Shown one piece after another: positions 2,216 to 43,819 of a stretch of 46,418 nucleotides of DNA (positions within the stretch are counted from its first letter, which is position 1; every line of letters starts with the position of its first letter). A program made the translations under genes and the position numbers. Source of the DNA: Bacteroidales bacterium (GTDB lineage: Bacteria > Bacteroidota > Bacteroidia > Bacteroidales > UBA932); NCBI GenBank assembly GCA_024401925.1, contig JAKSKD010000012.1, positions 1-46,418 of the forward strand, written 5' to 3'. A model generated the notes under the pieces. That model saw nothing but the letters and a program-made list of their open reading frames with translations, had not been told where the DNA came from and did not search any database.

Positions 2216-3946
2216 TCAGCACCCGTTTCTGCCGTTGAGCCTTTTCAAGACCGGGAACAATGGAACTCCGCATACGACGAATGCAACTGTCATTATGATT
2301 GCGAGAGTCGTTTTGCCGTATATCCAATAACCGGTAGCGAACATTGCGGAGTAAACTGCGGCAGAGGCAAGTGTCATAGCGAGCATACCCCAGGCGATGT
2401 CGTGTCGGGTGACTTTTATCCTTCCCCGGAATTCGGCGGCTTTCACCTCCGCGGTAGGGGCGGTTAGCAAAGTTACACTAACCCAGGCGACTGTCGTTAT
2501 TCCCATCACTATCAGCAGATTCTGCCACGAAGCCAGTGCCGGAAGACCGAGGTGGGGATATACCAGCTGAAGGAAACAGGCCACGATGAAGGAAACGGCC
2601 ATAGCAGTGATTTCGCTCCACGCATTGATTCTCATCCAGAACCAGCGCAGCAGATAGATAAGTCCCGTACCCGCTCCTATCTGGAGTATAAGGTTGAATA
2701 CGGTGCCTGCAGAAATGAGGAAGGGGGAAATCAACGCCGTACCTACCATAATTATTATTACGGAGAGCCGTCCTACAAGTATCAGTTCCTTCTCCGAAGC
2801 TTCAGGGCGCACGAACCTTTTCCAGAAGTCATTGGCTATATAGTTCGAGCCCATCGACAGGTGTGCGGCCACGGTTGAAAACAGGGCTCCCATCATAGCT
2901 GCGGCAACCAGCCCGAGCCATCCGTTGGGCACGAAAGTAAGCATCGCCGGATATGCCACATCCCCTTTTATCAGAGACGGATCGATATTCGGGAACGCCT
3001 TCTGCAACGAGAGCAAATCAGGGAACACTATCAAAGACGCAAACGCCGTCAGGTACCAGGGCCAGGGTCTGATTGCATAGTTGACAACCTGATAGAAAAC
3101 AGAGCCTCCCATACAATGGTTCTCGTCCTTTGCGGAAAGCATACGCTGGACGACATACCCGCCACCGCCCGGTTCGCTGCCGGGATACCATACATTCCAC
3201 CATTGAACTGCAATAGGTATGACAAAGGCTGCGACAAATATATCGGGATTGTTGATATCCGGAAAGAATGACATATGTTCAAGGACGGTCGGATTCGAAA
3301 GCAATGCGTGATATCCTCCTACCTGCGGCAGATTCACGGCATAATGCATACCAACGACAGCCCCGACCATTATTATTATAAACAGGAAGAAATCCGTATA
3401 AATCGACCCCCTGAGCCCTCCCAAGGCAGAATAGACTATCGACGCGACACAAGTGACGATAACAACCGTCCATTGATCTACGCCGAAAAGCACCTGCCCT
3501 ATCTTGATCGCGGCAAGGACCACTATGCCTGTCGATATGATATTGAAGATGAATCCGAGGTAAACGGCCCTGAATCCTCTGAGGAAAGCCGCGGCCTTAC
3601 CCGTATAACGCATTTCATAGAATTCGATGTCACTCTTTGCTCCGGAACGCACCCAAAGTTTGGAATAGACGAACACCGTCAGCATTCCGGTAAGAAGGAA
3701 AGCCCACCATTTCCAGTTCTCTCCAAGGTTGGAATTACGGATGTACTCCGTAAACATATTGGCGGAGTTGGTAGAAGTGGACGCCGCGCACATCGATATG
3801 CCGATAAGCCACCAAGGCATAGATTGCCCTGACAGGAAAAAGTCTTTTGCGCTTGATGATGCACGTTTCGAACACCACAGGGCAATCCCGAACATCAAAA
3901 CAAAGAAAAGGGCAATGGTAAGCCAGTCTATCCAATTAAGTAACAT
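2216..3946 (-). CDS. Sodium:solute symporter (SSS family) transporter
   Basis: This 576-aa inner-membrane protein has many hydrophobic segments across its whole length, as expected for the 13-14 transmembrane helices of the SSS family. Supporting features are the start WIDWLTIALFFVLMFGIALW, the segment FFLSGQSMPWWLIGISMCAA typical of helix 2, and the ARxx-like Na+-site region around SALGGLRGSIYTDF. The substrate cannot be read from sequence. It is the last gene of a three-gene operon, 4 bases after the U32-like gene and downstream of the reductive-dehalogenase-like gene, so it probably imports the compound or cofactor precursor these enzymes act on. The stop codon lies inside an 8-bp tandem repeat (GACCGTCA twice, 2203-2218). 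A degenerate copy of its 3' end occurs at 471-597. Confidence 0.9.
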   Translation of the reverse strand: MLLNWIDWLTIALFFVLMFGIALWCSKRASSSAKDFFLSGQSMPWWLIGISMCAASTSTNSANMFTEYIRNSNLGENWKWWAFLLTGMLTVFVYSKLWVRSGAKSDIEFYEMRYTGKAAAFLRGFRAVYLGFIFNIISTGIVVLAAIKIGQVLFGVDQWTVVIVTCVASIVYSALGGLRGSIYTDFFLFIIIMVGAVVGMHYAVNLPQVGGYHALLSNPTVLEHMSFFPDINNPDIFVAAFVIPIAVQWWNVWYPGSEPGGGGYVVQRMLSAKDENHCMGGSVFYQVVNYAIRPWPWYLTAFASLIVFPDLLSLQKAFPNIDPSLIKGDVAYPAMLTFVPNGWLGLVAAAMMGALFSTVAAHLSMGSNYIANDFWKRFVRPEASEKELILVGRLSVIIIMVGTALISPFLISAGTVFNLILQIGAGTGLIYLLRWFWMRINAWSEITAMAVSFIVACFLQLVYPHLGLPALASWQNLLIVMGITTVAWVSVTLLTAPTAEVKAAEFRGRIKVTRHDIAWGMLAMTLASAAVYSAMFATGYWIYGKTTLAIIMTVAFVVCGVPLFPVLKRLNGRNGC

Positions 3947-3950
3947 AAAT

Positions 3951-4970
3951 TTATCGTATTGCTATCCGTTTGAAAACCTCCTCGCAATACCCGCATTCAT
4001 TGCATTCCCTGTCGCACCTGGCGACCGTCTGCGCCCAATCCTCCGGGAACCTTGAATTATCCAGCACTATACCATATTTATAGAATGCAGGAGCGAAACC
4101 AGGTTCGAGCAGATCCAGCAGGTTTCCGTGAAAAGAGCGCGAAGAATATGCATCCAGCACCAATGCCATGCGCTGATGCTGGCGGGTGGCAAGTTTCACG
4201 AAATCGACATAAGGCTCGTACCGGTCGATATCCTCGGGCCTTATCCAGGTGGCCTTGAGGATTTCCGGCAGTTTGGACTCTGATTCGTACATTGTCCAGC
4301 ACAGGTGAGGATTGAAGTTCACGGAGCGTGGCGTCCCCATCGCCTCATAACTGTGGGCGATGAGATTGTCGTGATATGTCTGCCACGGGCAGTTGCGCAG
4401 GCACCCGGAGTTTGCCAGTATGCCCACCGTCTTCCCATTGGAATGAGCCCAGTCGCTGAAACGCTTCACATTGTCGAGGTTCCTGTGCACGTCCCTGCCT
4501 ATGTAAAAAGAGTCGAACCAGGGTGCAAGATAAGCCATAGCCTGCAGGGTGGTTATTCTCATATTGACAGAAGCACGCGTTTCTATTTCAGGAAAACGCT
4601 TCTTAACGACGTGCGCTATGAACGGGGATGCCGCCGTTATGGTTTCCGGCTTGCACCCCCAGGAGTCAAGTTCCTCTATGATGCCCTTCACCCTGAGCTC
4701 CAGTTCCCTGCTCATAGACAGTTCGCCGTAGCAATTGGCGTTCAGCAGCAAATCGAGGCGCATACCAAGACTCTTCAGGGCGACAAGTTCATCGTGAAGC
4801 ACCGTCTTTATCGTCTCGGTGTCATCACCCTCGCCATAGCCGAGAATCGGGCGTCCGCTGGGCTCGCGCACCCAGGGGAAATAGACCTCCTTCACCTGCG
4901 GAAAAGCCGAAACAAGCGAAGAGAATCTCTCCCCTTCGCTTTGATGTCGGTATCCGGCAGCGAAATACAT
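3951..4970 (-). CDS. U32 peptidase-like / UbiV-like iron-sulfur protein
   Basis: This 339-aa cytosolic protein (from the ATG at 4970; an in-frame GTG at 4973 would overlap the upstream stop) resembles the peptidase U32 family. Known members such as UbiU/UbiV and the tRNA-hydroxylation protein TrhP act in prenyl or RNA hydroxylation and bind 4Fe-4S clusters rather than cutting peptides. Visible features are a TIM-barrel-like series of strands (LDLLLNANCYG, TRASVNMRI), the U32 signature region GCLRNCPWQTYHDNLIAHS, and a C-terminal CDRECNECGYC. Together these provide enough cysteines for a cluster. It sits between the dehalogenase-like gene (start-stop overlap) and the symporter (4-base gap), so the three are probably co-transcribed and act together. 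The reaction is unknown. Confidence 0.7.
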   Translation of the reverse strand: MYFAAGYRHQSEGERFSSLVSAFPQVKEVYFPWVREPSGRPILGYGEGDDTETIKTVLHDELVALKSLGMRLDLLLNANCYGELSMSRELELRVKGIIEELDSWGCKPETITAASPFIAHVVKKRFPEIETRASVNMRITTLQAMAYLAPWFDSFYIGRDVHRNLDNVKRFSDWAHSNGKTVGILANSGCLRNCPWQTYHDNLIAHSYEAMGTPRSVNFNPHLCWTMYESESKLPEILKATWIRPEDIDRYEPYVDFVKLATRQHQRMALVLDAYSSRSFHGNLLDLLEPGFAPAFYKYGIVLDNSRFPEDWAQTVARCDRECNECGYCEEVFKRIAIR

Positions 4971-4972
4971 CA

Positions 4973-6088
4973 CTAGTCCATCATAGGATTATACGTAAGA
5001 CCTGCCTCGTTGACCTTCTTTCCGTCTCCTTCAGAATCGACTCCGCTCAGACCTGCTGCTGCGGCGCTGCCATAGTTCTCCTTGGCATTGTATTCGGTCA
5101 TTGCCTTATGGGACTCTATACCTGCACCGTTCTTATAATACTCATAAACCTCAGGATCGATTTCGTAGGGTTTGGAACGATCCATAGTCCAGAAAGGTTT
5201 CTTCGGATCGCGGAACTGGTTGCGGAAAGTCTTTGTAAGCTTGTTCCTCTGCTCCAGATGCGCCATACAGGCTCGTGTACAACCTGCGGCACCTTCTATT
5301 GCACGGCCGTAACCATACTGACGGGGATATTCTGCCTCAAAAGGATTCTGCGCCTTGTCAAGACCGCCCTGCAAGCCGTGCTCGCAAGCCATTTCATCAA
5401 GTTTGCCCCACTCCACTTCGTGGCCGGCAAGAGTCACCTTGACGGATTCATCCTTCGAAATGGCGTGGCCTGCACAATGCGCAACGCACTGTTTGCAGCG
5501 GTCACAAATATGGCCTTCATATATGGGATCCGGTTCCAATTCCGCATCAGTAAGCAATACCACGAAACGTACGCGCGGACCGAATTCGGGAGTAAGGAAC
5601 ACCTTGGACCAGCCGAACTCGCCCATACCTGCCAGATATGCGGCGATGCGGAAATGCACCAGTACGTCGGGATGAGGCTTGCCGGGTTCCACAGGACGGC
5701 TCCAACCTTCGCGGAACTTGCCTGTTACGGTATTGGTGGATTCACCGCCGTTGGCGTTGATAAGAGGAACGACCTCATAGCCGTGGTCTTCCATCCAGTT
5801 GCAGAAAGGCCACATCACCATAGGTCCCCATACCTGATTGATTGCAGCATAGCCCATTGTAGGATATGTGGAAAACAATGTCCCCTCCTCGATACCGCGC
5901 AAAGAACCGCGGGGAATCCTGAACCCGAAGACAATGAAGGATTTCGCACCCGGGAAAATATATCTCGGATCATTCTGTTTCGGAGCTCCTTCCCAACGCT
6001 CCATATTTCCTATTCCGCACAAATCAGCGCCGAAACGCTTTGCCGCTGCCTTTACGTCAGCGCTTGTAAGATCACATTCGTATGCCAT
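4973..6088 (-). CDS. Reductive dehalogenase / epoxyqueuosine reductase-like double 4Fe-4S protein
   Basis: This 371-aa protein belongs to the superfamily of corrinoid reductive dehalogenases and epoxyqueuosine reductase QueG. Residues 148-173 carry the family motif (AAYLAGMGEFGW, then LTPEFGPRVR). A ferredoxin-type cluster motif C-x2-C-x2-C-x3-C lies at Cys195, 198, 201 and 205. Further cysteines at 235, 270 and 274 (AGCTRAC) could bind a second cluster; the usual C-x2-C-x3-CP form is altered. There is no Tat or Sec signal, so it should be cytosolic, unlike respiratory dehalogenases. It is too diverged and in the wrong context to call QueG. It is the first gene of the operon, divergent from iclR, with a TATATTTG promoter element 20 bases before its ATG. 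The substrate is unknown; dependence on cobalamin is an inference from the family. Confidence 0.72.
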   Translation of the reverse strand: MAYECDLTSADVKAAAKRFGADLCGIGNMERWEGAPKQNDPRYIFPGAKSFIVFGFRIPRGSLRGIEEGTLFSTYPTMGYAAINQVWGPMVMWPFCNWMEDHGYEVVPLINANGGESTNTVTGKFREGWSRPVEPGKPHPDVLVHFRIAAYLAGMGEFGWSKVFLTPEFGPRVRFVVLLTDAELEPDPIYEGHICDRCKQCVAHCAGHAISKDESVKVTLAGHEVEWGKLDEMACEHGLQGGLDKAQNPFEAEYPRQYGYGRAIEGAAGCTRACMAHLEQRNKLTKTFRNQFRDPKKPFWTMDRSKPYEIDPEVYEYYKNGAGIESHKAMTEYNAKENYGSAAAAGLSGVDSEGDGKKVNEAGLTYNPMMD

Positions 6089-6108
6089 AATTCTTGACTT
6101 TTATAGTT

Positions 6109-6116
6109 CAAATATA
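6109..6116 (-). promoter_or_regulatory. -7 promoter element of the dehalogenase-like operon
   Basis: On the minus strand the bases read TATATTTG, matching TAnnTTTG, 20 bases upstream of the ATG at 6088. Confidence 0.6.
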
Positions 6117-6149
6117 TATCATATTATTTCTATAATGAAATAAAATTCA

Positions 6150-6157
6150 TAATTTTG
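6150..6157 (+). promoter_or_regulatory. -7 promoter element of the iclR gene
   Basis: TAATTTTG on the plus strand matches TAnnTTTG and lies 54 bases before the iclR ATG, leaving a short leader that contains the palindrome at 6175-6191. Confidence 0.5.
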
Positions 6158-6174
6158 TCAGACCGATAATATAT

Positions 6175-6191
6175 ATTCAATATTATTGAAT
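6175..6191. promoter_or_regulatory. Inverted repeat, candidate IclR operator
   Basis: ATTCAATA-T-TATTGAAT is a perfect inverted repeat with 8-base arms and a one-base centre. It lies between the iclR -7 element and the iclR start in the divergent spacer. A repressor bound here would block transcription of iclR directly and could also influence the divergent operon. Confidence 0.5.
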
Positions 6192-6211
6192 TTTAGTACA
6201 TCTTTATTGTA

Positions 6212-6967
6212 ATGATACAAGTAATTGACAGGGCATTGAACATCCTGGAATTGCTGGGTTCAGACCCTTCAAAAAATTTCGCCCTTGCAGAAATAGCGGA
6301 TATCACGGGATTACAAAAAACAACATGTGCAAATATACTGCAATCATTAGTCTCCCGAGATTATGTAGAGCACAGAAGCAAGCCGACCGGATACAGGCTC
6401 GGCTTCAAGGCTTTCAGACTGGTCAACTCACCAGCTTATTATGAAGCATTAAAGAGCATTGCAGAAGAACAGATGAATACGCTGTTCAATGCTATCGGCG
6501 AGACCACCGTTCTTTCAGTCCTGATAAACGGCAAGAGGATTGTCATATCCGTAAAAGAATGTCAACAGGGAATCACTGCTAGAATAAAACATTCGGCAAA
6601 CCTGTATCGTTCCGCAACAGGTAGGGTAATACTCGCAAATTATCCTAAGGAAAAAGCATCGCGCCTGATAGACAGAATCGGACTTCCAGACCCAGCGGAC
6701 TGGGAAGAAATTTCTACAAAAGACCAACTCAAATCGGCACTGCAAGTAATCCAACAGGAAAAATTCTGTGAAGTACGTAGTTCAGATATCATTGGTCTCG
6801 CTATGCCGATAATCCGCAACGGGATTGCCATCGCAAGCATAGGGGTATGCGTCCCTCTGTTCAGATTTGACGATTATAAAAGAGATTCCATCAAAAAATC
6901 TCTTGAGGCTGCCGCAAAGTCGATAGAAGATAAGATATCGAATGGGATATCAGTTGACATTGTTTAA
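6212..6967 (+). CDS. IclR family transcriptional regulator
   Basis: This 251-aa protein has an N-terminal winged helix-turn-helix (residues about 1-65; VIDRALNILELLG, LAEIADITGLQKTTCANILQ) and a C-terminal IclR effector-binding domain (about 75-245; SANLYRSATGRVILAN, then GLAMPII and IASIGVCVPLFRF). IclR proteins usually control catabolic genes for aromatic or small organic acids and bind the pathway substrate or an intermediate. The gene is divergently transcribed from the dehalogenase-like operon with 123 bases between starts and is very probably its local regulator. A perfect inverted repeat in the spacer is a candidate binding site. Length and domain layout are normal for the family. Confidence 0.88.
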   Translation: MIQVIDRALNILELLGSDPSKNFALAEIADITGLQKTTCANILQSLVSRDYVEHRSKPTGYRLGFKAFRLVNSPAYYEALKSIAEEQMNTLFNAIGETTVLSVLINGKRIVISVKECQQGITARIKHSANLYRSATGRVILANYPKEKASRLIDRIGLPDPADWEEISTKDQLKSALQVIQQEKFCEVRSSDIIGLAMPIIRNGIAIASIGVCVPLFRFDDYKRDSIKKSLEAAAKSIEDKISNGISVDIV

Positions 6968-7005: not shown

Positions 7006-8133
7006 CTAATATTGGCGTTCAAGCCATATCCGTGTCATCGGATCTGACAAAGAATACGTATTCCCTTTCTTTGTCAGAATTCCAGATTCGAGCAAAGACT
7101 TTGCAGCGGACTGAACTGCACTTGCCGATTTCAGATTATGACGTTTGATGAATGCTGCAGAAGTAATGCCTGCCGCATTAACTTCTGAACTGACTGCATA
7201 TAACAGTTCTTTCTGCTGTTCAGAAATTACTGAGAGAATTTCTTTGATTTTTACCCCGCTTTCATTGATATAATTGCCACTGAAAACTTCGGCTTCTTTC
7301 ATAGTGCAGGTCTCTCCATCTTCCGTATAATAATAACAGTCGTGAAGGACACGATGCACATAAAGAGTGACACCTTCGAATAGGCTATAGATATAATCAA
7401 AAGCTTCCCTCTGCAATTTTTTGCCGGATTTGGAAAATTGTTTCTGTGCAAAAGCATAATATTCATCTCTTGCTATCGCCTCCAGCATCAGCGTTGTCGC
7501 GCTCTGGTAGAACGGTTTTTTATCAGAATGAAACATTTCTGAAAGAATTCTTCGCTCTGAACCTGCAAAAATAATATGTGTGTTCGTAAGATTCTGAATC
7601 TTTCCTCTCAGCAGTTCCTCAACATTCTTCTCCGAATAGTTTGCTATCCTCTGGAACTCGTCAATGGCGATAACACAAGGCTTGTCAGCTGATTCAAGAA
7701 ATGCAAAGATTTCATCTAAGGTATAGTCAGGAGAGTCTATGTCCCCAAGCCTGATGTTGAATGTTGGCGTCGCATTTATCGGGTCATATCCAAAGCTTGC
7801 TGTCAACGACTTCAAGGTTGCAAGAAAACTGCGTTTTAGTTTATCACTCTTTTGTGCAACGGTTGCGAATGCTGCATTGCCAAGCTCCTTGACAAATTCC
7901 TTCGTTGAAGCAGTATGGAGAATATCGATAGAAATAGTATAATAGTTATCCTTGATTTCCTTCAATTCAAAACAATGGTTAATCAACCCTGTTTTCCCGA
8001 TACGTCTCTGCGCTATCAGCACAACATTTTCTTGATTTGTAATACTCTTCAGCAGGAGTTCAGTCTCCTTCTCCCTGTCACAAAAAAACTGAGAGGGGAT
8101 GCGGTTTGTTAGATAGAATGGATTTGTCTTCAT
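7006..8133 (-). CDS. AAA-superfamily ATPase with C-terminal winged helix
   Basis: This 375-aa cytosolic protein has a P-loop AAA/STAND-like ATPase domain: Walker A AQRRIGKTGL at residues 41-50 and Walker B CVIAIDEFQRI with Asp158-Glu159. A lid region follows, then a C-terminal winged-helix segment (about 310-375; KRHNLKSASAVQSAAKSLL, then GNTYSLSDPMTRIWL). The family is abundant in Bacteroidetes and archaea as single genes and is usually annotated only as ATP-binding protein; its role is unknown, with possible links to mobile DNA or stress. It has no operon partner. A -7 element (8138-8145) ends only four bases before the ATG, implying an almost leaderless mRNA. Its 3' end abuts the orphan riboswitch fragment, suggesting a recent arrival at this site. 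Confidence 0.85.
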   Translation of the reverse strand: MKTNPFYLTNRIPSQFFCDREKETELLLKSITNQENVVLIAQRRIGKTGLINHCFELKEIKDNYYTISIDILHTASTKEFVKELGNAAFATVAQKSDKLKRSFLATLKSLTASFGYDPINATPTFNIRLGDIDSPDYTLDEIFAFLESADKPCVIAIDEFQRIANYSEKNVEELLRGKIQNLTNTHIIFAGSERRILSEMFHSDKKPFYQSATTLMLEAIARDEYYAFAQKQFSKSGKKLQREAFDYIYSLFEGVTLYVHRVLHDCYYYTEDGETCTMKEAEVFSGNYINESGVKIKEILSVISEQQKELLYAVSSEVNAAGITSAAFIKRHNLKSASAVQSAAKSLLESGILTKKGNTYSLSDPMTRIWLERQY

Positions 8134-26710: not shown

Positions 26711-28501
26711 TTATTTAATCAGCAGATACGAATTTCCTTCTATGACCAAATTATCATACAGATATGGTTTTGACGAATAATTACAAATTACGACACTGCC
26801 ATCCGACCATCTTGAATAGCTCACATAGTCCGAGAGCATTTTATGTTCATCGAGAAATTCATACTGCAAATATCCGAGTTCCCTCTGCTGCTCCCACGCT
26901 CTTGAGATAGCCTTGACAGCACTATTCAATTCCGAGGCATTCCCACATCTAAGGTCTTCGTCACCCATCCAATTATTACCGTCATCTTTAAATGATGAAT
27001 AAAAATAAAACGACGGACGGCTCCCATATTCTATTGCTTTCATTGCAATTTCAGGTGCTTTAATCGTATAATTGACAAGATCGGAAGCTGCATTGTTAAG
27101 AATTATTCCATTATAAACGATATGCCACAACGGAACGTACTCTGAAGCCATTGAGGGCCACTTATCCTTTTTAAGGTCAAATGTAACATACAGGGCATAA
27201 TCCTCTGCACCAGCCACAAAATCGAAGGGTCCTTCACTTGCCGCGCCACCCATCTTCTGGGCAGCATCCCTCAGGTGAGCTTCTGCTGCACGGGCTTGTT
27301 CTGCCCTATTGTGAGGGTGCTTCTTATCATAGCAAGGCTGATGGTATTCACAAGAAAGCACATCTATATAATGCAACCCTCGAAAACCAAGTTCCCGCAC
27401 CTGCGAGTTTACCTCACTGACAATCTCATTCATCTGGCAGAGACAGGTCTTGTACATCCTGCCGCCAGACCAAAACTGTTTTCCAGTTGCGAACTGTCCG
27501 TCAGGATTCTTGACAATGATATCCTCACTGAATCTATCTGAAATCGTATATGCATCAGAAGAATTAGTATGGCAAGTAATCTGAAATCCATTTTCCTGTG
27601 AATATCCTATAAGTTCGCGTAAATCCTTTTCACCACCAAGCGACGGTTCTACTGGTAAAGCAGTAGGCCAACGTCCATCATGGCCTCTTACATTCCACCC
27701 CACAAGACATATCTCTGCTTTTGAAACCCCGACTGATTTCAGTGAATCAATTATATCCTTAACTCGGCGGAAAGTAACCGCAACCTTCATTTTCGGTTCA
27801 TTCTCCGGAGTTTGCTCCAAGACCGTAGGAGGAGCAGGTTTCCACCCCTGGCGAATTCTTATCTCGGGGCTCTCTGCAGCATACTTCAAGTACTCATTAT
27901 TAAGCACTCTCTCCTTCAAAGGTCTGATACGACCACGTTCTAACTGGTATTTACGATATGTTCTTCCCATACCGCTGTAAGATGCGTCATCCCCCACCAA
28001 TGGATAATAATCCACAATAATATCCTCATATGGGTTAACATCCTTGAAATCGAAACGCCGTCTCAATGAATACACGCCATTCTTAACAACTATGGAAATA
28101 GTGTTTTCAAATTGTAGCCCCTTGACGATTTCGAGCCAACAACCTGCTGGGGTAAGCGCTCCGGCAATAGGCATAGGCTGAGAATTCAGAGAATAAATCT
28201 GGTCAGTCTTACTGTCAAAGCGGAAAAGGAAGTCATTCGGCAGTACATAATAACCATCATCACCGAGCTTGGCTCTTTCAAACTCCGGAATAATTTCCAA
28301 TGAAACAAGAGAGCGAAGATCTTCCTTTCTTCTATAGAAACGATAGAAATCGCTCTGTTTTTCAAGAACACAAACAGTCGTGTCGCATCTTCCATCAGTA
28401 TATAATGAAACGACACTGGCTCTTGTCGGTGTTTCACATATTAAACCCGAATCCGAAAAAGGAGTCAAAGCAGCTAAGATAAATAGTAATGTACCAATCA
28501 T
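26711..28501 (-). CDS. Secreted putative TIM-barrel protein, DUF5696/GH101-like, function unassigned
   Basis: This 596-aa protein starts at the ATG at 28501, which overlaps the GH26 stop as ATGA, with a hydrophobic signal-like start MIGTLLFILAALTPFS. Residues about 1-200 are beta-rich. From about 240 a barrel-like domain begins: KVAVTFRRVKDIIDSLKSVG, EICLVGWNVRGHDGRWP, FQITCHTNSSDAY, LGFRGLHYIDVLSCEY. The Asp in HYIDVLS and the Asp-rich GWNVRGHDG could be catalytic. The layout recalls DUF5696 proteins and the barrel of endo-alpha-N-acetylgalactosaminidases (GH101), but I cannot confirm this. In the PUL it would be an additional glycoside hydrolase acting on side groups or backbone. It is followed after 15 bases by the sensor gene. 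Confidence 0.6.
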   Translation of the reverse strand: MIGTLLFILAALTPFSDSGLICETPTRASVVSLYTDGRCDTTVCVLEKQSDFYRFYRRKEDLRSLVSLEIIPEFERAKLGDDGYYVLPNDFLFRFDSKTDQIYSLNSQPMPIAGALTPAGCWLEIVKGLQFENTISIVVKNGVYSLRRRFDFKDVNPYEDIIVDYYPLVGDDASYSGMGRTYRKYQLERGRIRPLKERVLNNEYLKYAAESPEIRIRQGWKPAPPTVLEQTPENEPKMKVAVTFRRVKDIIDSLKSVGVSKAEICLVGWNVRGHDGRWPTALPVEPSLGGEKDLRELIGYSQENGFQITCHTNSSDAYTISDRFSEDIIVKNPDGQFATGKQFWSGGRMYKTCLCQMNEIVSEVNSQVRELGFRGLHYIDVLSCEYHQPCYDKKHPHNRAEQARAAEAHLRDAAQKMGGAASEGPFDFVAGAEDYALYVTFDLKKDKWPSMASEYVPLWHIVYNGIILNNAASDLVNYTIKAPEIAMKAIEYGSRPSFYFYSSFKDDGNNWMGDEDLRCGNASELNSAVKAISRAWEQQRELGYLQYEFLDEHKMLSDYVSYSRWSDGSVVICNYSSKPYLYDNLVIEGNSYLLIK

Positions 28502-29643
28502 AAACTCCAAATAATGTTCTTTTGGCCAATAAATTTGATAGTCTGCTGTTTATAGAACGACATAGACCATAACTGGAAAACTGAAATATGTACCTTCTTA
28601 TCTGTAAGTACATATTCCACATAGTCATAGTACTCATCTTTCATATCTGCCGTCTTACAATTTGATTCTGCAATCATAGCAGGTTTACTCAGCCTACTTG
28701 ATACGGCGGAAACAACACGGGCTCTGTTAAGAATGGCATCAATGAACATCTGTGTCGTGCATCCTCTATCATCGCCTATCTGATAATCATCATAAGCCAA
28801 GATATCAACGACATCATCGCCTGGGTAGGACTCAAGATATGATGCCTCATCAGAAAAATACCTATCAGGACAATAGCACCATAGTATCTGAGCATTCGGA
28901 CAATAATTTCTAAATTTTTCAACAGTTAGTCTCCATAATGCCTTGTAATCTTCCACAGACACGTGAGTTCTTTTAGAACTTCCTGTTCCCAATCCCCACC
29001 ATTGCCAAGAATCCTGTTGTTCATGCCACAAACGGAAAACAAACGGAATCGGTTTGCCGTTCTCATCTACAAATTCCTTGTTAATGAAATCGGCTATCTC
29101 CCTCACCTGCAAATCAAACCAATCTCCGATATTACCTATACCGAGGGTATCAATCTGTTTATTGTTCAAAATTTCATTGACAACATACCTGTGATTTTGA
29201 GGATATCCTTCAACGAGATGATGATATCGACACCCCATCTTATTTTGGAATTCCGAGTATACAGCATATGGAGAATGAAGGTGCCAGGAAACCAATGGGA
29301 CAGCCCTATTGTTCTTCCAGGCAGCCTTGACCATTACCGCAATATTATGATATTGCGCGGAAGTCATCTCCTTAGGAAGATAATCACCAGTTGCTTGGTA
29401 GAAATCAATACCATACATGAACGGATGGTCCAGATACTTGGCACGGGAGTCGTTTATATCGTCTGTTCTGGTATAATCATAGAACTTGAACATACTGAAA
29501 TACGTTCTTCCCTTATCAGCCGCTCTGTTAAGATTCGCAAGGAGAGTTTCCTTATCCGACCAATTGTTCCATTTACTCGCTGCCCGGGCACATAAAACAC
29601 CCGAACCCAACATCAGTATGCATATCAATATGTACTTTTTCAT
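28498..29643 (-). CDS. GH26 endo-beta-1,4-mannanase-like enzyme
   Basis: This 381-aa secreted enzyme has a signal peptide (about 1-21; LMLGSGVLCARA) followed directly by the GH26 domain, starting SKWNNWSDKETLLANL. Key motifs are SWHLHSPYAVYS, the acid/base Glu in FRLWHEQQDSWQWW (about residue 207) and the nucleophile Glu in AMIAESNC (about 326). It is a close relative of the GH26 part of the 19377 gene but lacks the fimbrillin-like N-terminus and a lipobox, so the two probably act at different sites (periplasm versus surface). It is 3 bases after susD. Mannan is the usual GH26 substrate; beta-1,3-xylan or mixed-linkage glucan are less common options. Confidence 0.9.
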   Translation of the reverse strand: MKKYILICILMLGSGVLCARAASKWNNWSDKETLLANLNRAADKGRTYFSMFKFYDYTRTDDINDSRAKYLDHPFMYGIDFYQATGDYLPKEMTSAQYHNIAVMVKAAWKNNRAVPLVSWHLHSPYAVYSEFQNKMGCRYHHLVEGYPQNHRYVVNEILNNKQIDTLGIGNIGDWFDLQVREIADFINKEFVDENGKPIPFVFRLWHEQQDSWQWWGLGTGSSKRTHVSVEDYKALWRLTVEKFRNYCPNAQILWCYCPDRYFSDEASYLESYPGDDVVDILAYDDYQIGDDRGCTTQMFIDAILNRARVVSAVSSRLSKPAMIAESNCKTADMKDEYYDYVEYVLTDKKVHISVFQLWSMSFYKQQTIKFIGQKNIIWSL

Positions 29644-40868: not shown

Positions 40869-40876
40869 TACCTTTG
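40869..40876 (+). promoter_or_regulatory. -7 promoter element of the riboswitch-btuB-btuC transcript
   Basis: TACCTTTG matches TAnnTTTG exactly and sits directly before the riboswitch, so transcription should begin near 40884, at helix P1. Confidence 0.65.
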
Positions 40877-40883
40877 CAGCAAG

Positions 40884-41060
40884 TTACGGTAAACCATTGC
40901 GGTTTCAAAAGGGAATCAGGTGAAAAGCCTGAACTGTGCCCGCAGCTGTAAGTCCTTGAAAGTCCTTGTTTTCAGGCCATTGTCCCTATGGGATGAGAAG
41001 GTGCAAGGATGGGATGAGTCAGAAGACCTGCCGTAATCAAGTCAAATCACCGGAGCCCGG
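40884..41060 (+). promoter_or_regulatory. Cobalamin (adenosylcobalamin/B12) riboswitch
   Basis: The conserved core is present: GGGAATCAGGTGAAAAGCCT at 40911-40930, GCCCGCAGCTGTAA at 40938-40951, and the B12-box-like GAGTCAGAAGACCTGCC at 41016-41032. Helix P1 is formed by TTACGG (40884-40889) with CCGTAA (41031-41036). A CCGG-AGC-CCGG hairpin (41050-41060) follows the aptamer; it is the likely expression platform whose loop can contact the aptamer and mask the btuB start region. High cobalamin should turn off btuB and btuC. The btuB ATG is 30 bases further on. Confidence 0.93.
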
Positions 41061-41089
41061 GAGCAGGTTCTTGAAAGACGAAACAAACT

Positions 41090-43015
41090 ATGTTTTTATC
41101 AATTCTGCCGGCATTGACCGGGATGATTTCTGCAGTCGCTTGCGATGCAGGAATTTCTGAAGCAGAGAAAACCGACACGCTCTCTGCCGTGACCGTGGTC
41201 GCCGACAGGGGGACGGTGGTATCAAGGGCCGATACGGTGTTGACCGGCAACTCGATTTCAATCACTGATGCGCTGTCATCCATCCCCAGCATTTACATTT
41301 GTGATTATGGCGCCCTTGCAGGGCCGAAATCGGTGAGCCTGCGCGGATTCGGCAGCCCGCACACCGCCATCTACCTGGACGGAGTGCGCATAAGCAATGT
41401 CCAAAACGGGCAGGCCGACCTCGGAATGCTGGACTTTGCCAACTGCTCCGCCGCCGTTGTGGATTATGCCCAGAACAGCATTTCATTCAATACGGCAAAA
41501 CCTGCATTCAAGGGCGGGCGCCTCGTCGGAGGGAGCGTGAACTTCCGCGGCGGTTCGTTCGGAACCTACGAGCCTGCGGCAAGGCTGGATTTCAAACTCA
41601 CGCCCAGAGTTACAATGACCGCAAGCGCCACAGGAACCATCAGCAAAGGCGATTTCACTTATGGTGACGACAACGCAAGGCGTGAAAACAACGATATAAA
41701 ACAGATACGCACCGGCCTTGATTTCAGGGGGGACCTTGACGGAGGACATTGGCACGCAAAAGCATATTACAACGGCTCAGACAGGGGCACACCAGGATCC
41801 GTCAGCTGGCCGTCCATCGACCGTCAGAAGGACCGCAACGCTTTCGCACAGGCCCTGGTCCGGAAACGGTTCACACCGCTCTACCAGTTGAACCTCAGCG
41901 CCAAAGGCGCATACGACGACCTTCTGTACATCAGCGAGTGGGGCGACAGTCGCTACCGTCAGGGCGAGGTCCAGATAAACTCATCGCACAGATTCAGCGT
42001 CAACAAGTGGTTGGAAGCTTCTTGTGCCGCCGATTACCAGTGGGACGGGCTGAATTCCACTGAGTACGCGGCATCCCGTTCGGCCGTCACTGCGGCGGCA
42101 ACCGTCACCTTCCATCCTAAGAATTTCAAAGCGGACATTGCCGTGGAATATTCAGGTTTCTTCGACAGGACTCAGGGCACTGACGCAGCAGCGACGAAGA
42201 GCACGGACGCCATAGCCGGTCAGGGCAGGAACCGCAACGTCGTCTCCCCTTCCATAGATTTGCGTTATCGCGCATTCAAGGGATTCGACATCACGGCTTT
42301 CGGCCGCAGGGCATACCGTACGCCCACTTTCAACGAACTCTACTATCCCGGCTACGGCAACCCGGACCTCAAGGCGGAGGATGCCTGGCTGACGGATATC
42401 GGGCTGGAATACCACCTGACCTTCGCTGACAGGTGGAACGTTTCCGCCAAGGCGGACGGTTTCTGCAACTTTCTGAAAAACAAGATAGTATCGGCTCCTA
42501 CTGAGCTGGATCCTAGCATCTGGCTGCCATACAACATAGGCAAAGCCAGAATGGCGGGCTCCGACCTGCAGGCGGGCATCGTCTATGACTCCGGGGCGGC
42601 CGGAGCATCGGCAGGCTCGACGCGGACAGGCGGCAGAGACGGCGTAAAGACCGGCTTTTCAGCCCGCTACAATTATAATGACGCCATCGACAAGACTCCT
42701 GACGCCTACACCTACGGACAGCAGATACCCTTCATTTCGAAACATACGGTCAGTCTCGATGCCAACGCCTCCTACAGAGGCTGGTGGGCGGACCTGAAAT
42801 GGAACTGGCGGGGAGGCAGATATGACTCCGCCGGCAAAATGCCCGACTACAACACCCTCGACCTTACGGCAGGCAAGGACATCCGCCTGCCCCACGACCT
42901 TCTTCTGGGGCTGAAATTCATTGCCCGCAACCTCACCGATTGCCGCTATGAACTCACAAGCGGCTATCCTATGCCAGGGCGTTCATTTTTCGGAGAAATA
43001 AATTTCAAATTCTAG
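41090..43015 (+). CDS. btuB: BtuB-like TonB-dependent cobalamin receptor
   Basis: This 641-aa outer membrane receptor has a signal-like start (MFLSILPALTGMISAVACDA) and a TonB-box-like DTLSAVTVVADRG. The plug domain carries LSSIPSIYICDYGALAGPKS, SLRGFGSPHTAIYLDGVRIS and ENSISF-like features typical of BtuB. The barrel includes FGRRAYRTPTFNELYYPGYG and NPDLKAEDAWLTDIG and ends in FFGEINFKF. Length matches BtuB (about 600-650 aa) and is far shorter than SusC. The riboswitch directly upstream supports cobalamin or another corrinoid as ligand. Its TAG stop is in the same frame as btuC, followed by three codons and the btuC ATG. The region is clearly GC-richer than the PUL. Confidence 0.92.
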   Translation: MFLSILPALTGMISAVACDAGISEAEKTDTLSAVTVVADRGTVVSRADTVLTGNSISITDALSSIPSIYICDYGALAGPKSVSLRGFGSPHTAIYLDGVRISNVQNGQADLGMLDFANCSAAVVDYAQNSISFNTAKPAFKGGRLVGGSVNFRGGSFGTYEPAARLDFKLTPRVTMTASATGTISKGDFTYGDDNARRENNDIKQIRTGLDFRGDLDGGHWHAKAYYNGSDRGTPGSVSWPSIDRQKDRNAFAQALVRKRFTPLYQLNLSAKGAYDDLLYISEWGDSRYRQGEVQINSSHRFSVNKWLEASCAADYQWDGLNSTEYAASRSAVTAAATVTFHPKNFKADIAVEYSGFFDRTQGTDAAATKSTDAIAGQGRNRNVVSPSIDLRYRAFKGFDITAFGRRAYRTPTFNELYYPGYGNPDLKAEDAWLTDIGLEYHLTFADRWNVSAKADGFCNFLKNKIVSAPTELDPSIWLPYNIGKARMAGSDLQAGIVYDSGAAGASAGSTRTGGRDGVKTGFSARYNYNDAIDKTPDAYTYGQQIPFISKHTVSLDANASYRGWWADLKWNWRGGRYDSAGKMPDYNTLDLTAGKDIRLPHDLLLGLKFIARNLTDCRYELTSGYPMPGRSFFGEINFKF

Positions 43016-43024
43016 ACTCAAGTT

Positions 43025-43819
43025 ATGCTCAACCTTCTCTACGTAATACTTTGCGGCATCGCCCTCCCGGTGGGCGGAGTCCAGATGCAATATCTCTGGC
43101 GCAACCAGCTCGGCGACATATACTCCCTTGGACTCGGCAGCGCAGCCTGTCTGGGTGCGGCCACGGCGACTATGACGGGATGGTGCTCGCTGACCGCCGG
43201 TGCCTTCATCTGCCAGGCGGTATGCGCAATAATCGTAGCCCTCGTGGCGCTCAGGCTGGACACTCCGAAACTGATAACGTTCGGCATACTGTTCGGCACG
43301 CTCATAGGCTCGCTCGGCACCATAGTGGTCACCAACGCACCTACGGGAGACCTGCTGAAACAGTATTACCTCTGGGGAGCGGCGAACTTCAAGCTGCAGG
43401 GTGTAACGCCAGTCGACATTGCCGTAAGTCTGACTCTGTTCGCAGCAGGCATAGCCTCAGCCGTCCTGTGCGCGAAGAAACTCACAAAACACCACAGCGG
43501 GGAAATCGAGCTTTCGAACCTGTCCAAGGCCATAATACTCTTTATGGTGAGCATACTGGTCACGAGCGTGGTGAGCATCTGCGGAACGATAGGCTTCGTA
43601 AGTCTGGGCATACCCAACCTTGCCCGCATCATCGTAAAACCCGGGGACATACGCAGACAATATGCGCTGTCCGTCGGGATGGGGACAGCGCTGCTATTGA
43701 TAACCTATCTTGTAGTGGAATACTGCAACTTCGGTTTCTACCTGCCTGTCAGCGCCACGATGGCGATAATAGCCCTGCCGCTGATGGTGGTGCTGTTCAG
43801 ACGCTCTACTTCGTCGTAA
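43025..43819 (+). CDS. btuC: BtuC/FecCD-family ABC transporter permease, N-terminally short
   Basis: This 264-aa integral membrane protein matches the middle and C-terminal parts of the FecCD/BtuC family: GIALPVGGVQMQYLWRNQLGDIY (usual form SGAxxQxxxRNPLAxP), GILFGTLIGSLGTIV, LWGAANFKLQG, TIGFVSLGIPNLARIIV (usual GFVGLxxPHxxR). Normal members are about 320-350 aa; about 70 N-terminal residues with the first helix are missing, and the in-frame stop of btuB prevents extension upstream. It may be a shortened but functional permease or a decayed one. No btuD ATPase or btuF binding protein follows. The 3' end overlaps the convergent GH2 gene by 14 bases. Role: corrinoid import through the inner membrane, inferred from the riboswitch. 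Confidence 0.82.
   Translation: MLNLLYVILCGIALPVGGVQMQYLWRNQLGDIYSLGLGSAACLGAATATMTGWCSLTAGAFICQAVCAIIVALVALRLDTPKLITFGILFGTLIGSLGTIVVTNAPTGDLLKQYYLWGAANFKLQGVTPVDIAVSLTLFAAGIASAVLCAKKLTKHHSGEIELSNLSKAIILFMVSILVTSVVSICGTIGFVSLGIPNLARIIVKPGDIRRQYALSVGMGTALLLITYLVVEYCNFGFYLPVSATMAIIALPLMVVLFRRSTSS

Follow-up and report, generated by a model that had tools for sequence, protein, structure and literature searches.

A QueG/RdhA-related protein and its U32-like partner in an IclR-linked gene cassette of a Bacteroidales bacterium

The window analysed here is a 46,418-base stretch of DNA from a Bacteroidales genome (1.86 Mb, 89% complete). At 2216-6967 it carries a cassette that encodes a dehalogenase/QueG-like double-cluster protein (the dehalogenase-like protein), a U32-like protein, a sodium symporter of the SSS family and a divergent regulator of the IclR family. 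The first two form a conserved core pair, and the dehalogenase-like protein stands outside the QueG clade. Most likely, the dehalogenase-like protein, as a new clade with the QueG/RdhA fold, and its U32-like partner would modify an imported sugar derivative without oxygen. A literature search, judged mainly from titles and abstract openings, found no description of this cassette.

The genes for the dehalogenase-like protein (4973-6088, 371 amino acids), the U32-like protein (3951-4973, 340 amino acids, with GTG then ATG at its start) and the symporter (2216-3946, 576 amino acids) run head-to-tail in this order on the minus strand (2216-6088). A 1-base overlap (TAGTG) joins the first two, and a 4-base gap separates the U32-like and symporter genes. 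The IclR-family gene (6212-6967, 251 amino acids) lies on the plus strand, divergent from the three-gene run. The positions of the open reading frames (ORFs) bear out the three tightly spaced genes with a divergent IclR gene that the initial annotation had described.

A pair conserved across phyla

A 70-residue core of the dehalogenase-like protein served to scan a named genome collection for relatives. Of the 421 confirmed, the best 80 were kept, which gave 78 loci (handles L012 and so on) with 128 hits. Genes in these loci were called by a codon-usage script, with starts and small genes uncertain. Many contigs end near the match, and the absence of a partner is therefore often uninformative.

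The relatives are labelled Lentisphaerae/Lentisphaeria, Kiritimatiellae, Verrucomicrobia, Clostridia and other Bacillota, Armatimonadetes, WS1, Zipacnadia, Spirochaetia and gut Bacteroidales, and the loci include a cultured relative, Oligosphaera ethanolica DSM 24202. The closest ones (L012-L016) share 89-91% identity with the window protein. Such near identity across labelled phyla, together with the patchy spread, suggests horizontal transfer, with wrong binning possible for single metagenome bins.

A U32-like gene is present in 28 of the 78 loci; as we read the gene maps, it is directly beside the dehalogenase-like gene in 26 and one gene apart in 2 (L019, L040). The initial annotation had proposed a search for co-occurrence of the three families with IclR, and a lack of conserved co-occurrence of the three genes would have refuted it. 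The search did not refute it: the core pair recurs across phyla, though the trio with the symporter was found in 8 of 78 loci (L012, L013, L014, L019, L040, L044, L047, L048) and an IclR gene closely related to that of the window (over 150 bits) in 3 of 78 (L014-L016).

Co-occurrence was counted in 194 genomes that had been drawn evenly from the Oligosphaera phylum. A U32-like match was found in 45 of them (42 strong) and a dehalogenase-like match at E≤1e-30 in 40 (30 strong, over 300 bits). The ten dehalogenase-like genomes under 300 bits were counted as negative, two of them with a strong U32-like hit. By strong hits, 29 genomes had both genes, 13 the U32-like gene only, 1 the dehalogenase-like gene only and 151 neither (Fisher p 3e-23, kinship uncorrected). 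The two genes are adjacent in 26 of the 29 genomes with both. Distances were taken for 65 of the 69 U32-like places, the other 4 being weak, and for 49 dehalogenase-like places; the strong dehalogenase-like places outside this set lie far from any U32-like gene or on contigs that lack one. Of the 65, 34 lie within 4 kilobases (kb) of a partner. When U32-like loci of this draw were fetched, 21 of 28 had the partner within a flank of ~1.5 kb. The pairing across phyla is thus more than chance. In a further check all 20 genomes had a U32-like gene, which counts for little because 18 of them were picked from loci already showing one. The two informative genomes, those behind L063 and L052, also have the gene; it sits beside its partner in L124 of the former, and in the latter no partner was found within ~1.5 kb to either side at L126 and L136.

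Closer to the source genome the presence of the genes is patchy. Among 36 other genomes of the same genus no match to the dehalogenase-like protein was found, and a 61-genome search gave five other genomes with seven partial matches (63 to 209 residues, 32-39% identity). The U32-like gene was found in its own genome only, among 395 drawn from its phylum and searched with a single sequence. Dehalogenase-like relatives were not found in a plasmid collection or, with the patterns used, in a viral collection; U32-like relatives were not found in the viral collection either.

The Oligosphaera genome has 25 places matching the dehalogenase-like family, and dehalogenase-like genes also stand in two- and three-gene arrays in loci without a U32-like gene. 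Both parent families contain RNA-modifying enzymes (PMC4646009, PMC11574389), and the pair might likewise act on RNA or another macromolecule, as QueG and the U32-type RNA hydroxylases do, the transporter being incidental. We consider this quite unlikely, given the patchy presence within the genus, the many paralogs in one genome (that of Oligosphaera), the tight spacing with a transporter gene, the catabolic type of the regulators and the sugar-related neighbours described below.

Three dehalogenase-like paralogs in a row, with no U32-like gene, were seen in L055, L058, L065, L076, L081, L086, L088 and L089, and perhaps constitute a separate sub-system. Proteins of ~480 amino acids after the triple array of L055 were considered as corrinoid methyltransferases because of their length and dropped, as one inspected by eye reads as a binding lipoprotein. 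Long proteins matching the dehalogenase-like family (about 764-774 amino acids) are probably fused (L186, 3334-5655; L028, 2894-5218). Tandem arrays of 3 to 5 U32-like genes without a dehalogenase-like partner in the same stretch occur in L168 (6295-12294), L169 (7270-10699) and L170 (7143-10641). These adjoin a methionine-synthase-like gene and, in L169 and L170, also glycosyltransferase-like genes (by eye).

The dehalogenase-like clade and its U32-like partner

The dehalogenase-like protein scored 46.8 bits against the RdhA model TIGR02486 (cut-off 160) and 23.7 bits against the QueG model TIGR00276 (cut-off 200). In a quick tree of 84 rows, a branch with an SH-like approximate likelihood ratio (SH-aLRT) support of 98 sets the window protein and a sample of 49 relatives apart. 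Its other side holds 22 QueG, 5 RdhA and 7 shorter or other QueG-like proteins. Some long branches meet in this tree, as the tool warned, so the deeper order is unsure. The initial annotation had proposed comparing the protein with QueG and RdhA in a tree, and its reading, which a place inside true QueG clades would have refuted, survived the comparison. By score and tree the protein is neither QueG nor RdhA and is placed in a separate clade.

A profile of 73 aligned rows (the window and 72 of 119 full-length relatives) found PceA, QueG and NpRdhA in the PDB, chiefly through residues 145-210. Profile-profile alignment in global mode, in which end-to-end matching is forced, gave 99.7% to QueG and 99.8% to RdhA, its N-terminal part being plausible and less sure. 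The fold is thus likely common to the dehalogenase-like protein and QueG/RdhA, with a different active site. Seven Cys are invariant in all 73 rows (C195, C198, C201, C205, C235, C270, C274). The first cluster motif, C195/C198/C201/C205, is therefore intact and the second altered, as had been noted initially: C235, C270 and C274 are kept and the fourth ligand is not. This eighth ligand of QueG and RdhA is variable, with C268 in 34 of 73 rows and no Cys at 262-269 in 31 of 73, among them the window protein. The idea that an open-site [4Fe-4S] cluster is general in the family was dropped in view of the 34 rows with C268. The clade has a motif of its own, R57-I-x-R-G...R64-G-x-E-E-G-T, and its N-terminal half is well conserved. 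The protein may be corrinoid-dependent, as the initial annotation had thought possible: its profile matches QueG and RdhA well, but the Tyr above the corrin is not conserved (see below).

Like QueG (TIGR00276; S. thermophilus 5D6S), the clade has a CxxCxxCxxxC first motif and a local PDB match in the core. Unlike QueG, it does not conserve the fourth ligand in the cluster that adjoins the corrin, and its context is one of sugars, not tRNA. Like RdhA (PceA 4UQU and NpRdhA 4RAS, both among the best PDB profile matches), it has an AGLGE...TPEFGPR...cluster core, and the Asn aligned with PceA N272 is retained in 56 of 73 rows. It differs from RdhA in its score, in its split position in the tree and in the N-terminus, where we saw by eye neither a Tat signal nor any other export signal, in agreement with the initial annotation.

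The protein is the sole TIGR00276 match of its own genome (23 bits; the genome is 89% complete), which raises the idea that it is the epoxyqueuosine reductase of the organism, in place of QueG. Of 37 genomes sampled from the genus (several incomplete) none passes the QueG cut-off, against 52 of 60 drawn from its class, so the protein is not a QueG replacement: the 36 other genomes of the genus have neither a QueG match nor a dehalogenase-like gene. With the place of the protein outside QueG in the tree, a replacement is scarcely credible. QueG identity itself was rejected on the 23.7 bits, the tree and these genus genomes.

The U32-like protein matched Peptidase_U32 (PF01136) at 14.9 bits (E 0.017), under the cut-off of 22.4, and had no family over cut-off in Pfam or NCBIfam. 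Weak PF01136 matches (E≤1) were found in 16 of 26 U32-like members, the best at 7.5e-4, and none of the 26 had a credible sequence match in the PDB. C81, C191, C195, C225, H201 and H207 are invariant over the 26 members, as is the signature LANSGC...C...HDN...H; a C-terminal CxxxCxxCxxC is present and not invariant. The weak U32 match suggests that the protein is probably an iron-sulfur (Fe-S) TIM barrel. U32 oxidases, as reviewed in PMC11574389, are Fe-S enzymes that hydroxylate without O2 and are quoted there with the Cys motif CX6CX15CX3C. The four conserved Cys recall the U32 family (PF01136; UbiU, UbiV and RNA hydroxylases). The spacing C81...C191-x3-C195-x29-C225 is a different one, and we therefore propose a likeness of mechanism only, not membership.

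Symporter, regulator and corrinoid-related elements

The symporter matched SSF (PF00474) at 94.7 bits (E 7e-27, cut-off 22.8). Its closest solved relatives are of the SGLT type: the best PDB matches are vSGLT (2XQ2/3DH4; E 8e-34 over most of the length) and SGLT1/2. Symporters like that of the window are present in 22 of the 78 loci at 69-82% identity, except in L019, L029 and L030 (53-54%).

The regulator matched IclR_C at 48.7 bits and HTH_IclR at 41.7 bits, both over the cut-offs. Between the divergent genes lies a palindromic box, TTCAATATTATTGAA (6176-6190), which we presume to be the IclR operator. Boxes of this form lie upstream in L014 (on the IclR side), L015 and L016, which are the three relatives with a linked close IclR gene, and the box has no counterpart in L012 and L013, where no IclR gene was detected. 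A degenerate pattern derived from these boxes, with one mismatch allowed, gave 3 matches in the window against 0.23 expected, a number reached by 1 of 100 shuffles; two of the three are the TTCAATATTATTGAA palindrome read on both strands. An exact match of TTCAWTRWTAWTGAA occurs in the 1.86 Mb genome only at 6176-6190, and the reversed control nowhere. The cassette is probably under IclR control. In Oligosphaera (L171) an IclR-like gene sits between the two partners, and in L182 and L186 genes that read by eye as IclR-like lie next to dehalogenase-like genes.

A cobalamin riboswitch in the window (40870-41049, plus strand) precedes genes for a TonB receptor (41090-43015) and a FecCD permease (43025-43819). 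This region (40870-43819) is likely a corrinoid uptake locus and lies ~34 kb from the cassette. In L014 a riboswitch (7424-7625, minus strand) is upstream of the IclR gene. The ~130 bases between it and the probable gene start leave space for a promoter, and through this riboswitch the regulator could come under control of the B12 level. A second one in L014 (6286-6458) precedes a TonB receptor gene, whose neighbour matches DUF5074 just under cut-off. Since L014 was the only locus with riboswitches among the 34 of 78 searched, the corrinoid link stays a hint.

Sugar-related context and proposed role

The scanned neighbours of the relatives are largely carbohydrate genes, including XylR/AraC-type regulators and DUF5696 proteins. 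Part of the neighbours was scanned, and in some loci they were read by eye, without a family library. We found GH43 in L015 and, by similarity, in L016; SusC/SusD-type genes in L014 and L015 (by eye and similarity); a GH123 match below cut-off in L047; GH109/GFO_IDH_MocA in L012 and L034; an FGGY kinase with fucose- or arabinose-isomerase-like genes in L062 and L020; an aldo/keto reductase in L064; and enolase-like genes in L052. The Clostridia locus L066, in which no SSS gene was found, has permease and binding-protein-like genes ahead of the pair. Ordinary housekeeping genes also occur among the neighbours. The window itself encodes a glycosidase-like DUF5696 protein (26711-28510, minus strand) with 35-42% identity to five DUF5696 proteins of relative loci. 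These five lie beside a dehalogenase-like gene in L019, L029 and L030 and one gene away in L039 and L047. None of the papers searched mentions DUF5696.

The initial annotation had suggested a non-respiratory reductive step, such as dehalogenation, on an imported small molecule. A non-respiratory step on such a molecule fits, but no observation points to dehalogenation, the neighbourhoods scanned being largely carbohydrate-catabolic. PceA and NpRdhA are among the closest solved structures by profile, which is what favours reductive dehalogenation, or an aromatic dehydroxylation, of an imported compound. It is nevertheless very unlikely, as the protein is outside RdhA in the tree, the symporter is SGLT-related and no halogen- or aromatic-degradation gene was recognised among the neighbours scanned.

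We regard it as about evenly balanced whether the cassette is an IclR-switched catabolic unit for a carbohydrate-derived small molecule, in which the pair modifies an imported sugar derivative. The SGLT-related symporter would import the substrate. The dehalogenase-like protein, representing a new clade with the class III corrinoid/double [4Fe-4S] fold, and the U32-like Fe-S protein would then act as a pair and remove or rearrange a substituent without oxygen, yielding a more common sugar that could enter central metabolism. Genes for an isomerase, kinase or aldolase adjoin the pair in some other loci. Among the scanned neighbours in the window and the Kiritimatiellae loci no kinase, isomerase or aldolase was recognised beside it, which would fit a peripheral step yielding a common sugar. 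IclR would bind the palindrome and control both sides. The analysis shows the genes, the separateness of the family, its conserved pairing, the shared box and a context rich in sugar genes; IclR binding, the corrinoid, the flow of electrons, the substrate and the reaction are inferences.

Several observations weigh against this proposal. The Tyr above the corrin that QueG and RdhA share, as described in PMC4646009, aligns with W87 in the window protein, and only 38 of 73 rows have Tyr there, so this superfamily residue is not conserved; the W87 placement comes from the QueG alignment, the RdhA alignment gives Q85, and the position is thus uncertain by 2 residues. Cobalamin riboswitches were absent from the other 33 relative loci searched. 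The symporter gene is absent from 20 of the 28 U32-like loci and a close IclR gene from 75 of 78 (partly because of contig ends), and AraC/XylR-type regulators (15 loci) are commoner than close IclR. U32-like genes stand without a partner at 31 of 65 places, including the tandem arrays by the methionine-synthase-like gene, and no single downstream enzyme is common to all loci. In an alignment read by eye, residues of the symporter are replaced at the positions that we take to be the galactose contacts of vSGLT, and the symporter therefore probably carries another substrate.

The lack of a conserved Tyr would also suit a dehalogenase-like protein that is an electron-transfer partner without corrinoid, the U32-like protein being the catalyst of an oxygen-independent hydroxylation or similar reaction. 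The four invariant Cys of the U32-like protein and the O2-free hydroxylation by Fe-S enzymes of the U32 oxidase type (PMC11574389) point the same way. However, dehalogenase-like genes also occur without a U32-like gene in the two- and three-gene arrays, the well-conserved N-terminal half is unlike a simple ferredoxin, and the U32-like Cys spacing is not that of U32 oxidases. We hold this alternative to be less likely than the proposal above.

In the boldest reading, the pair might strip a methyl (or other ether) group from sugars such as O-methyl hexoses or 4-O-methylglucuronate in an anaerobic, corrinoid/Fe-S-dependent reaction. In aerobes a P450 system demethylates 6-O-methylgalactose, and the pair would be its counterpart working without oxygen; we consider this reading unlikely. 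If true, it would give the QueG/RdhA fold one more functional class. The QueG structure paper (PMC4646009) names two functions of the fold, dehalogenation and epoxyqueuosine reduction, and states that there may be further families of B12/[4Fe-4S] enzymes, without a sequence motif to find them. The dehalogenase-like clade is a concrete candidate for such a family, with a frequent Fe-S-type partner, an importer, a regulator and relatives in the cultured Oligosphaera ethanolica. Should its substrates be modified sugars, it would give access to a step in the anaerobic breakdown of glycans that has no assigned enzyme.

The window also contains a polysaccharide utilisation locus (8293-40526) with GH2, two GH3, two GH26 and SusC/SusD-type genes, a hybrid two-component regulator, the DUF5696 gene and mannonate dehydratase (UxuA)/oxidoreductase genes. 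At the other end, a HipA_C kinase-like ORF (606-1526) overlaps a short ORF (1519-1848) and looks like a split HipA-type module.

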